From a virus: a stretch of DNA of 25,969 nucleotides. The position numbers were made by a program, and so were the translations under genes. Below, piece by piece: positions 9,698-25,969 of this stretch (its first letter is position 1; every line of letters begins with the position of its first letter). Location: positions 1-25,969 of IMG/VR virus record IMGVR_UViG_3300042987_000521. One strand, given 5' to 3'. A model generated the notes under the pieces. It saw nothing but the letters and a program-made list of their open reading frames with translations. It had not been told where the DNA came from and did not search any database.

Positions 9698-10228
9698 ATG
9701 GCATACATTACAGTAAACGAAACAGGCACTTTCCCTGCGTTGATACTGTCAACTGATATTGCTAACTGTAACGTTGGCGCAACTGGTAATGGTTTCCTCG
9801 CAGGAGCAAACCTATTAAACGTAACTTGCTTACAAGATGTCACTATCACAAATAGCACAGGCATCTTTAGTTGGACAGATTTCTGTTCAGCAAGTATCAA
9901 CAAAGTTACTACACCAAGCGACAACGAAATCAGCACTAACATTGTTATCGATGATGAAAAATTCTTTGGTGACAGTGCCGCTGGTAATACTACAGCAGCC
10001 TACTATGGTGTTTCTGGTCTAAGCCAGAATCGCGTAGAAGTTGCATTTAGAGTACAGTTGAACAACAGCAGTAACGTTGGAAACCTCGCTCCAGCAAATA
10101 CTTTTATCTATCATGGTAAGGGTTATTTGAGCAGCGTAGCACCAACTGTATCACCAGACAGTCCAGTGTGGGTGTCACCACTCACAATCGCTGTCACTGG
10201 CGATATGGGAAGTGGTCCAAAGGTCTAA
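9698..10228 (+). CDS. Probable major tail (tube) protein
   Basis: 176 aa with an excellent ribosome site (AAAGGAGAACTACA) and a strong terminator just after it, both signs of high expression. The protein is beta-rich, short of lysine and high in Asn, Thr, Ser and Gly, and begins MAYITVNETGTFPALILSTD. It stands between the completion protein and the tail chaperone pair, the standard place for the tube subunit. Repeated hydrophobic strands near 100-150 (NRVEVAFRVQL, NTFIYHGKGYLSSV) fit a beta-sandwich tube fold. No specific family can be named by eye. Confidence 0.75.
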   Translation: MAYITVNETGTFPALILSTDIANCNVGATGNGFLAGANLLNVTCLQDVTITNSTGIFSWTDFCSASINKVTTPSDNEISTNIVIDDEKFFGDSAAGNTTAAYYGVSGLSQNRVEVAFRVQLNNSSNVGNLAPANTFIYHGKGYLSSVAPTVSPDSPVWVSPLTIAVTGDMGSGPKV

Positions 10229-10489: not shown

Positions 10490-10786
10490 ATGAAACTATC
10501 ACAAATCTGTTCTGAACCACAATTAATTGAAATCAAATTAGACGATGAAGATATTGTAAAACAATATGGCGAACCATTAAGTTTTTATACTTGGGATCGT
10601 CAGCCAATGGAAGTATTCATGCGTCTTGCTAATGTAGAAACAAAAAATGCCGGTGAATTAATTAACATTATGAAAACATTAATTCTAGATGATGATGCCA
10701 AACCTATCATCAACGATAAAAATATGTTACCTACAGCAGTGTTAATGAAAGCAGTTACAAAGGTGACCGAACAGTTGGGAAAATAA
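10490..10786 (+). CDS. Tail assembly chaperone, upstream frame (gpG-like)
   Basis: 98 aa, starting MKLSQICSEPQLIEIKLDDE after a good TAGGAGAAACAA site. It lies between the tube protein and the tape measure, where lambda has gene G. The last sense codons are TTG GGA AAA, directly followed by TAA, and contain a canonical slippery heptamer (10777-10783). A fraction of ribosomes should shift by -1 and continue into the next frame, giving a 185-aa fusion. In lambda, G and G-T coat the tape measure protein and recruit tube subunits. Confidence 0.85.
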   Translation: MKLSQICSEPQLIEIKLDDEDIVKQYGEPLSFYTWDRQPMEVFMRLANVETKNAGELINIMKTLILDDDAKPIINDKNMLPTAVLMKAVTKVTEQLGK

Positions 10787-11046
10787 CAAATGACACCGTC
10801 GATGTCAAAAGTGCAAAGATGGTGTCAATTTTACAGTTAGATGGGCTTGGTAAAAGATATGGAATGTTGCCAAGCGAGGTATTAGGTAGAGGTAATACAT
10901 TTGATTTATACATAATGGATTGTGCTTTGTCATTTGAACATTATCACAATAAAAAGGCAATGAACAATGGTAAGGCTCCAATACCCGAATATAAACCAAG
11001 TGAATTAGAAGAAATATTTAAAACAGGAAAATTGCAAAAGAAATGA
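10490..11046 (+). CDS. Tail assembly chaperone frameshift fusion (gpGT-like)
   Basis: Product expected from the -1 shift: residues 1-98 of the upstream frame, 12 linking residues (ITNDTVDVKSAK, 10783-10818) and 75 residues of the downstream frame (10819-11046), 185 aa in all. The -1 frame is open from the slippery site to 11046. The downstream part begins MVSILQLDGLGKRYGMLPSE and has no convincing ribosome site before its ATG, so translation through the shift is the likely route. In lambda-like tails the T part binds tube protein and the G part binds tape measure. The stop overlaps the next start (ATGA). Confidence 0.85.
10777..10827 (+). promoter_or_regulatory. Programmed -1 ribosomal frameshift site
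   Basis: GGGAAAA at 10777-10783 is read in frame as G_GGA_AAA, which fits the X_XXY_YYZ rule; lambda G/T uses GGGAAAG. The zero-frame stop follows at 10784-10786. After a 7-base spacer, TGACACCGT (10791-10799) can pair with ATGGTGTCA (10819-10827) in a stem of 9 bp, one pair being G-U, around a 19-base loop. Slippery site, spacer and stem are all in the classical arrangement. The stem also holds the ATG at 10819, so independent start of the second frame would be hindered. Confidence 0.87.
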
Positions 11047-11345
11047 GTTTTAAACTTACAGTTAATATTAAAAGTAACATTACTCCAACTCTAAAATCTA
11101 TGCAAAAAAAGATAGATAAAATTCCTGCGGATGCATATAAATTTTTTGTAAAAGAAACACCTATAAGAAGTGGTAATGCTAGACGTAATACAACATTAAA
11201 AAATAAAAAAGATATCGTAGCAAATTATCCATATGCACAACGTTTAGATGAAGGATATAGTAAACAAAGTCCAAAAGGTATGACAGAACCTACTATGGAT
11301 TTTATTACTGATGAATTTATTAAAATAATGACAGGAAAGAAGTAA
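11043..11345 (+). CDS. HK97 gp10-like tail/neck protein
   Basis: 100 aa. The segment FFVKETPIRSGNARRNT (34-50) followed by YPYAQRLDEGYSKQSPKGM (62-80) matches the typical pattern of the HK97-gp10 family (PvrSGnlrrs ... YAxxlExGts...). This family acts in head-tail joining or tail completion. It usually lies before the tube gene, whereas here it sits between the chaperone fusion and the tape measure, an unusual order. It starts within the fusion's stop codon (ATGA overlap). Confidence 0.75.
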   Translation: MSFKLTVNIKSNITPTLKSMQKKIDKIPADAYKFFVKETPIRSGNARRNTTLKNKKDIVANYPYAQRLDEGYSKQSPKGMTEPTMDFITDEFIKIMTGKK

Positions 11346-11346
11346 T

Positions 11347-13770
11347 ATGGCAAATGCTACTGCTAATGTACAATTAAATGTTACTGGTAATGCTCAACAG
11401 CAATTACAAAAATTACAAAAATCTGTAAATTCAGTACAAAGTAGTTTTGCTGGATTACGCAATGCATTAGGTGGTATTGCCATAGGAGCATTCGTAACAA
11501 ATACATTTAGATTTGCTGATGCAATGGATGACCTAAGTAAAGCAACTAATATTGGTTTAGAAAGTGTAGTAGGATTTGGTCGCGCTGTACAACAAAATGG
11601 TGGCACATTAGAAGGTGCAGAAAATGCACTTAATAAATTTGTTATTACAATTGGTGAAGCAGCACAAGGCAGTAAAAATGCACAAAGTGCTTTTGCTAAA
11701 GTTGGTGTATCATTAAAAGATTTACGTAATTTAAGCGAAGAAGATTTATTACGTAAAACTATTAAAGGTTTGGGTGAGATTAAAGACGCAAGTGAAAGAG
11801 CAAAAGTATCTAATGAAATCTTTAGCAAATCATTGCGTGGTACAGATTTAACCGCACTAGCAGGTGATTTTGATAAGGCAACTGGAAGTGCTAAAGCATA
11901 TGCAGATAGTATAAGATCAGCAGCGGAAGTTCAGCAAACACTAGAAAATACTGTAGGCACATTCAAGAATGAATTATTGGTTGCATTAAAACCATTAACT
12001 GATTTTATTAACAAATTAGATAAGGATGACATTGCCAAATTTACTAAGGCAATCGCAGAATTAGCAGTATCCATAGGTGGATTGGTAGCAGTACTTAAAG
12101 CAGTACAGATAGTTGGTGCTCTAGCATTAGGCGCCTTTGCAATGATGAGGCAGGGTGCTATTCAAGTTGGAAACACAAGCAAAACAGCAGCAATTCAAGC
12201 CAAAGGATTTAGTAAAGCCTGGACTGAAGCAAGTGGTATTATTGAATCAGCCATGGTATTGTTAGTTGGTTTGGCAGCGAGACTTAAAAATATAGGATTC
12301 CTATTAGGTGGTATAGTAAGATTTATTGCTCCATTATATGCTGTTGCTGAAATCTTATCACGTATTGTTAGTGGTGGCGATAAAGGCGCACTAGATTATT
12401 TTGATACATTAATTAAAAAAATTAAAGATTTTTTAGGCTTAAAAAGTGAAGCAGAAAAATTTGATGCGAGAAAAATGGGTGCGCGTGAGGCAACTCCAGA
12501 AGAATCAGGTGTATTTTTTCCTACAGGCGACAACTCAGCAAATCGTGAGATTATAGATAGTAATGAACAATTAAGTTTATCAATTGCTGATGTAACTAAA
12601 AGTTACGCTGAACAAAATAATCAATTACAAACCAATTTGGCTAACCAATTAAAATACATGCAGGTTAGCATAGATGAAGCAGAAATATTACAAGCGCAAG
12701 ATCAAATTAGAGAACGCAGTAATGAAGCCGTAGCCAAATTAGTTGAAATGAAGGATAAATTACAGGATAAAGAAAAAGAATTAATTCCTATAATTGATGC
12801 TCAGATTGAAAGTATTAGATTGCAAGAACAAGCGCAAATTACAGCAGTAAAAACAAATATTGAAGCAATACAACAATATAAAAATGCACAAGAAGAATTA
12901 AAGGCAAGTATTGAAGATACTGCTCGCGCATTTGCACAAGCAGAAGCAATGCAAGATTTACAAGATCAATTATCATTAGTTGGTCTATATGGTGAAGAAT
13001 TAGAAAAACAAACAGTAATATTACAAGCACAAAAAGCCTTGCGTGAAGAAATGCAACGTTTAAGTGTTGAATTATTAAATCTAGAAGCACAACGCACTCA
13101 ATTAGGTGAGGTTGCATATCAACGTGAGCGCCAACGCATAACACAACAAATGATGGATGTCCAATCATTGGCAGAAGCAAAAATTAGTGCCTATGAACAA
13201 GAAATGGAAAAGAAAAAACAAATTGATGAAAGTTATGCGGAAGGTGCAGCAAGAGCATTAAAAGATATTGCTGATCAATATAAACCCATTAATTTAGCAC
13301 AAGAAGCAGTACAAAAAGGTTGGGGCAGAATTAGTGATGCTGTAGATACATTCGTTGAAACAGGCAAATTTAAGTTTAGCGATTTTGCACGTAGTGTTTT
13401 ACAAGATTTAGCCAAAATGATTGCTAAAGCCTTAATATTTAAGGCTATAAGCGCAGCATTAGGTGCATTTGGATTAAAATTACCTGGACTAGCAGCAGGT
13501 GGACCAGCAGAAGCAGGTCAACCATATATTGTTGGTGAAAAGGGTCCAGAACTATTTGTGCCACAAAATAGTGGTAAAGTTATACCTAACAATCAATTAG
13601 GTAAAGGTACTGGTGCAGTAAGTGCACCAATCACTAACAATTACAATACATACAACATAAACGCACTTGATGCTAAATCAGTAGCAACATTATTTGCTGA
13701 AAATCGCAAAGCAATATTTGGAGCAAACAAAATGGCAGAACGTGAAATGAGTTATGCTGGAGCAAGATAA
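11347..13770 (+). CDS. Tail tape measure protein
   Basis: 807 aa, the longest gene of the central tail block, setting tail length (about 120 nm by the usual 1.5 Å per residue rule, an estimate only). The N-terminus NATANVQLNVTGNAQQQLQK is typical. Two hydrophobic helical segments lie at about 235-267 and 300-341, useful for membrane passage of DNA. A long charged coiled coil covers about 395-650. The C-terminus has the lambda gpH-type sequence AGGPAEAGQPYIVGEKGPEL followed by FVPQNSG (about 716-742). It follows the chaperone pair, as in lambda. The stop overlaps the next start (TAATG). Confidence 0.93.
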   Translation: MANATANVQLNVTGNAQQQLQKLQKSVNSVQSSFAGLRNALGGIAIGAFVTNTFRFADAMDDLSKATNIGLESVVGFGRAVQQNGGTLEGAENALNKFVITIGEAAQGSKNAQSAFAKVGVSLKDLRNLSEEDLLRKTIKGLGEIKDASERAKVSNEIFSKSLRGTDLTALAGDFDKATGSAKAYADSIRSAAEVQQTLENTVGTFKNELLVALKPLTDFINKLDKDDIAKFTKAIAELAVSIGGLVAVLKAVQIVGALALGAFAMMRQGAIQVGNTSKTAAIQAKGFSKAWTEASGIIESAMVLLVGLAARLKNIGFLLGGIVRFIAPLYAVAEILSRIVSGGDKGALDYFDTLIKKIKDFLGLKSEAEKFDARKMGAREATPEESGVFFPTGDNSANREIIDSNEQLSLSIADVTKSYAEQNNQLQTNLANQLKYMQVSIDEAEILQAQDQIRERSNEAVAKLVEMKDKLQDKEKELIPIIDAQIESIRLQEQAQITAVKTNIEAIQQYKNAQEELKASIEDTARAFAQAEAMQDLQDQLSLVGLYGEELEKQTVILQAQKALREEMQRLSVELLNLEAQRTQLGEVAYQRERQRITQQMMDVQSLAEAKISAYEQEMEKKKQIDESYAEGAARALKDIADQYKPINLAQEAVQKGWGRISDAVDTFVETGKFKFSDFARSVLQDLAKMIAKALIFKAISAALGAFGLKLPGLAAGGPAEAGQPYIVGEKGPELFVPQNSGKVIPNNQLGKGTGAVSAPITNNYNTYNINALDAKSVATLFAENRKAIFGANKMAEREMSYAGAR

Positions 13771-22275: not shown

Positions 22276-25969
<3,694 letters not shown>

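Follow-up and report, generated by a model that had tools for sequence, protein, structure and literature searches.

Two open reading frames (ORFs) lie end to end among the tail genes of the window (the whole 25,969-nt stretch of viral DNA analyzed here), raising the question of whether they are two separate genes or a single gene that yields two proteins. A preliminary description had read their junction as a programmed −1 frameshift cassette. Judging from the sequence signals described below, we hold with high confidence that −1 programmed ribosomal frameshifting lets this gene encode two tail assembly chaperones. The features on which the argument draws are as follows.

9698..10228, + strand: probable major tail protein, assigned only from its position and from synteny
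10490..10786, + strand: zero-frame ORF (98 aa), predicted G-type tail assembly chaperone, from the ORF and its predicted fold
10761..10766, + strand: Shine-Dalgarno (SD)-like putative stimulator AGGTGA, 10 nt before the heptamer, from synonymous recodings and anti-SD pairing
10777..10783, + strand: slippery heptamer G_GGA_AAA, from its position in frame and the relatives' codon choice
10784..10786, + strand: zero-frame stop TAA, adjoining the heptamer, from the sequence
10783..11046, + strand: −1 frame continuation, T-type domain, 87 aa, from the sequence and the −1 relation in 122/122 relatives
10791..10800, + strand: hairpin 5′ arm TGACACCGTC, from folding, synonymous controls and covariation
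10818..10827, + strand: hairpin 3′ arm GATGGTGTCA, containing the −1-frame ATG 10819, from folding and covariation
11043..11345, + strand: next gene, tail-completion/neck-like protein (PHROG 5, E 5.5e-6)
11347..13770, + strand: tape measure protein (PF09718, E 1.1e-12; PHROG 24, E 7.8e-21)

The first ORF (G) ends in TTG GGA AAA TAA, which places the heptamer in the correct frame and the zero-frame stop right after it, as the preliminary description had stated. It was also right that the −1 frame stays open beyond the slip site as far as 11046, where its TGA (11044–11046) ends, and that a −1 slip would join 98 and 87 residues into a G-T fusion of 185 aa. By itself, GGGAAAA is unremarkable: the window holds two copies, compared with 2.8 expected by chance. 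Its significance comes from frame, stop, stem, and conservation taken jointly.

To follow the site through related viruses, we collected IMG/VR loci and deduplicated them by the 300 nt around it, leaving 122 distinct sequences with the window included, all from uncultured viruses. No cultured relative was found by tblastn in 50,697 phage records with the window's fusion and two divergent relatives as queries, and the 27 pattern hits in GTDB genomes included no relative. The second part lies in the −1 frame in all 122 sequences, and in none are the two parts fused in frame. Every one keeps a slippery heptamer: GGGAAAG in 90, GGGAAAA in 29, and GGGAAAC (L131), GGGGAAG (L034), and GGGGGAA (L079) in one each. 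G_GGA_AAA or G_GGA_AAG is thus the heptamer of 119, and a less canonical one appears only in L034 and L079. The stop adjoins the heptamer in 120 sequences and lies one codon further in the other two, both with GGGAAAG. The preliminary description had suggested checking the conservation of GGGAAAA, which is seen for the slippery motif throughout and for the exact heptamer in the 29; the counterevidence that it named, relatives with both frames but without heptamer and stem, did not turn up, as all keep the heptamer.

The codons of the slip site are also constrained. Its glycine is encoded by GGA in 120/122 sequences, compared with 4/118 at the conserved Gly70, and its leucine codon is always NTG (TTG or CTG only), compared with up to all six codons at other conserved leucine positions. 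These patterns indicate that the choice of Leu-Gly-Lys codons before the stop reflects a constraint on nucleotides rather than on protein. The three rare heptamers all retain the −1 relation, and L131 also retains 9 of the 10 pairs of the hairpin described below. GGGAAAC is weak in E. coli, though reported as likely used by IS elements. GGGGGAA is a recurrent motif in annotated actinophage frameshifts (PMC10274946), and G_GGA_AAG, but not G_GGA_AAA, is among the most efficient heptamers in E. coli (PMC4066793).

Beginning 7 nt after the heptamer, TGACACCGTC can pair with GATGGTGTCA to form a simple hairpin of 10 bp, one of them G-U, with a 17-nt loop. The preliminary description had this spacing right and put the stem slightly too short, at up to 9 bp; the ATG that it placed inside the stem is indeed there, with both the −1-frame ATG 10819 and GTG 10822 in the 3′ arm. 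Folding of the RNA downstream of the heptamer, one of its proposed checks, gave a stem with a minimum free energy (MFE) of −17.4 kcal/mol, a value that none of 200 dinucleotide shuffles equalled (z = −4.3). Compared with synonymous recodings that keep the −1-frame protein, the window's hairpin has z = −4.5 (p = 0.003), and 26 of the 29 GGGAAAA members fold better than their synonymous controls (p < 0.05, mean z −3.15). A pseudoknot, in which the loop pairs with downstream sequence, was significant in 0/34 sequences, and a search of Rfam returned no match.

Codon-shuffle z-scores treat sequences as independent and are inflated by shared ancestry; a sliding control and a comparison of pairing registers provide safer evidence for the hairpin. 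Within the window's clade (30 distinct sequences), two-sided changes occur at 5 of the 10 pairs. Compensatory cells, the covariation that the preliminary description had proposed looking for, number 28, compared with 7.4 ± 2.6 after shuffling (0/500 reach the observed value), and slid registers score far lower. A blind register scan picked the window's register as best for its own clade (z 10.9). For the sister GGGAAAG clade, it picked another, i+j=61 from the stop (z 12–14), and in the basal lineages it gave no register signal. For register 61, covariation was present in the sister clade (35 cells versus 14.9 ± 3.1) and absent from the window's clade; the window's register, in turn, showed none in the sister clade. 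The sister set in these covariation tests consists of all rows of the tree except the 47 of the window's clade and the basal ones, and is therefore a grade rather than one strict clade.

This double dissociation implies that the 5′ arm is common to both hairpins and that the 3′ partner differs by nine bases. In the sister clade, the 5′ arm is kept, still about 7 nt after the heptamer, and has its partner 9 nt farther along. Several sequences, such as L145, L029, and L161, can form both stems. On the strength of the dissociation, we rejected the window's register as a family-wide feature. The hairpin is missing from 13/13 members of one subclade (sub12) and from 14/18 basal sequences. Thus, of the cassette first described, the heptamer is universal and the stem is not: the basal lineages and one subclade mostly do without it, and the sister clade has a different pairing. 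Mean hairpin MFE is −14.4 kcal/mol with GGGAAAA and −10.0 kcal/mol with GGGAAAG, and stronger hairpins may perhaps compensate for the weaker G_GGA_AAA. We rejected a strict dependence of GGGAAAA on the window's stem: L159 and L176 carry that heptamer but lack the stem, and L194 carries the stem with GGGAAAG.

Our analysis also revealed an element absent from the preliminary description. AGGTGA, upstream of the heptamer, can pair with the anti-SD GAUCACCUCCUUA at −8.7 kcal/mol. SD-like sequences occur here in 53 of 102 distinct upstream stretches, whereas synonymous recodings predict 4.2 ± 2.0. In the two main clades, codon 91 is AAG in 72/72 sequences, compared with 138 of 711 lysine codons elsewhere in the gene; the next codon, 92, is GTG in 52/72. 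Mean anti-SD pairing peaks exactly at the element (−6.9 and −7.3 kcal/mol in the two main groups), and that of the gene's own start is −6.9 kcal/mol. This usage indicates that the element is under strong selection in the two main clades. It is nearly absent elsewhere, with any SD-like sequence in 1/17 distinct basal upstreams and 0/13 in sub12. The co-occurrence of SD and hairpin rests on few evolutionary events in the tree and is not statistical proof. The reported SD spacing for stimulation of −1 frameshifting is 9–14 nt (PMC5009743), and the 10 nt seen here falls inside that range.

Each of the two flanking signals could have another origin. The stem might be a coding by-product of the peptide NDT(V/I)D...KMVS and have no role, and synonymous recodings of the same protein do still give about 6 of 10 pairs. 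We consider this quite improbable: the stem has 9.1 of its ten pairs in the GGGAAAA members and 6.0 in such recodings, two-sided compensatory changes exceed every shuffle and every slid register, and the blind scan favored the window's register for its clade. Similarly, AGGTGA might serve initiation or coupling at a downstream start rather than stimulate frameshifting, as SD sequences close to gene ends can serve coupled starts (PMC5009743). However, the −1 frame offers no canonical start at initiation distance from the element. TTG 10775 has the right spacing but is in the zero frame, where it opens a 3-codon ORF, and ATG 10790 is likewise zero frame and not conserved. The distance to the heptamer fits −1 frameshifting, and the element is missing from clades that mostly also lack the hairpin. 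A coupling role is therefore unlikely.

Other explanations do away with ribosomal slippage altogether. One makes the heptamer incidental and the second frame a separate gene, with re-initiation or translational coupling providing its start at ATG 10819. A gene caller would choose this start, and its codon is kept in 105/122 relatives. Yet an SD-like sequence precedes possible −1-frame starts in 4/122 sequences, compared with 121/122 for the first ORF, and mean anti-SD pairing is −2.9 versus −6.9 kcal/mol. In three relatives, the first 20 codons contain no ATG at all; members of the window's clade have it within the stem; and the IT/VT..D residues before the methionine are conserved as protein though they would be untranslated. 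A separate gene also leaves GGA in 120/122 sequences unexplained. We regard it as very improbable, and independent initiation of the second frame appears unlikely, though a minor product started separately from the widely kept ATG 10819 may exist. The scarcity of SD-like sequences before −1-frame starts agrees with the preliminary view that the frameshift product is the main form of the second frame. The fusion might also arise by transcriptional slippage on the short homopolymer run inside the heptamer. This run is just four A long in the window and three A long in the GGGAAAG relatives, and runs that normally cause transcriptional slippage are far longer. Nor would this route account for an SD-like element whose distance is specific to the ribosome, and we give it almost no weight.

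The gene and its neighbors stand in a conserved order: major-tail-like gene, 62-aa ORF, G, T, neck-like gene, and tape measure. Among relatives with enough flank, the neck-like gene is present in 118/118, the major-tail-like gene in 105/105, and the tape measure in 102/107. The product of 9698..10228 has no family match in PHROG or Pfam. The start of the neck-like gene overlaps the T stop (ATGA), and the placement of this gene between T and the tape measure is unusual compared with lambda. By sequence, G itself matches neither a PHROG or Pfam chaperone family nor any other curated family. Its predicted fold (pLDDT 87) has as its best PDB match the HK97 gp13 tail assembly chaperone (2ob9; prob 0.94, TM 0.53, E 0.075), and in BFVD it matches an annotated tail assembly chaperone (TM 0.89, E 1.2e-8). 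The PDB match is modest, and overall support for a tail-chaperone fold is moderate. T is predicted to be helical; 15/23 members match PHROG 6541 (function unknown), and a PDB sequence search with the T profile found no match. Taken together, the frame relation, slip codons, covarying stem, synteny, and fold support a −1 programmed frameshift in a G/GT-type gene.

Some observations concern neighboring genes. L060 (3548–3841), and also L061, carries a second G-like paralogue of 97 aa directly after T, overlapping the T stop (ATGA). The L060 copy is 23% identical to G (BLASTP E 1e-9, single comparison) and is possibly a duplicated chaperone. In the window, an FkbM-type methyltransferase (2035–2955; PF05050, E 4.7e-23) lies just upstream of the large terminase gene. 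An open-ended ORF of at least 959 aa (23091–25967), with collagen-like Gly-X-Y repeats and two non-repeat inserts, leaves the contig and is likely a tail fibre or adhesin.

How does this locus compare with known systems? As far as lambda G/GT and HK97 are represented by Xu, Hendrix and Duda 2004 (cited in PMC5009743), the locus shares with them a two-ORF chaperone gene before the tape measure, a −1 shift near the end of G, a GGGAAAR heptamer, and a fusion as the longer product. The G fold is most like HK97 gp13, the second ORF is in the −1 frame, the flanks are tail genes (the major tail protein by position), and the in-frame heptamer is conserved. Unlike lambda and HK97, the locus has no PHROG or Pfam chaperone match for G, a neck-like gene intervenes before the tape measure, and the hairpin and SD-like element are also under selection. 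These two signals recall E. coli dnaX and the IS911/IS3 family, in which an SD-like sequence 9–14 nt before an X_XXY_YYZ heptamer is combined with a close downstream hairpin (PMC5009743, PMC4066793, PMC3711429); here, the covarying hairpin stands at 7 nt, within the usual 4–10 or so. That bacteria employ hairpins and SDs of this kind is established (PMC4066793). The gene and heptamer differ from those of dnaX and IS911, and the hairpin here is a simple one; frameshifting would yield a longer tail protein, not the truncated polymerase subunit or the transposase of those systems. By analogy, then, the signal layout resembles dnaX/IS911 and the gene function lambda/HK97. AGGTGA, heptamer, and hairpin together give this tail chaperone gene a cassette of three parts in the style of dnaX/IS911. 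The likeness to lambda G/GT drawn in the preliminary description holds for the logic of the gene; the putative upstream SD-like stimulator makes dnaX/IS911 a closer mechanistic analogue than lambda's minimal site.

We propose that most ribosomes would read G and stop at TAA 10784. When a ribosome reaches GGA AAA, two signals could act on it: its anti-Shine-Dalgarno could pair with AGGTGA, 10 nt behind the heptamer, and the 10-bp hairpin, 7 nt ahead of it, could resist being unwound. The Gly- and Lys-tRNAs would then slip back by one base and pair anew, Gly moving from GGA to GGG and Lys from AAA to AAA, and translation would enter the T domain to give the 185-aa fusion. If lambda and HK97 are a guide, G may coat the tape measure protein, as may the G portion of G-T, with the T portion recruiting the major tail protein. 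In other phages, frameshifting in HK97-like tail chaperone genes was measured at 6–7% (PMC3711429), and the lambda G to GT ratio is 30:1 (PMC5009743).

A tentative history, which we put somewhat below an even chance, would treat the upstream SD and hairpin as one module, gained after the basal split and lost in one subclade while the heptamer was kept. The hairpin would have switched its 3′ partner, bridged by sequences that form both stems, and its strength may offset the weaker G_GGA_AAA or G_GGA_AAC.

The mechanism is already well known from tail genes; what is seen here is selection on all three signals across a large uncultured group. The upstream SD and the switch of hairpin partner are additions to the preliminary account. 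A literature search turned up no account of this combination in tail chaperone genes; because most subscription papers lay outside its reach, we claim no priority. The finding adds a large uncultured phage family with a predicted tail chaperone frameshift. Gene callers will miss the 185-aa product, and the tail chaperone of this family cannot be annotated without the frameshift. The relatives form a natural series, from a bare heptamer to a full SD-heptamer-hairpin cassette with two alternative hairpins, which would allow measuring the contribution of each stimulator to the G to G-T ratio that the phage needs.
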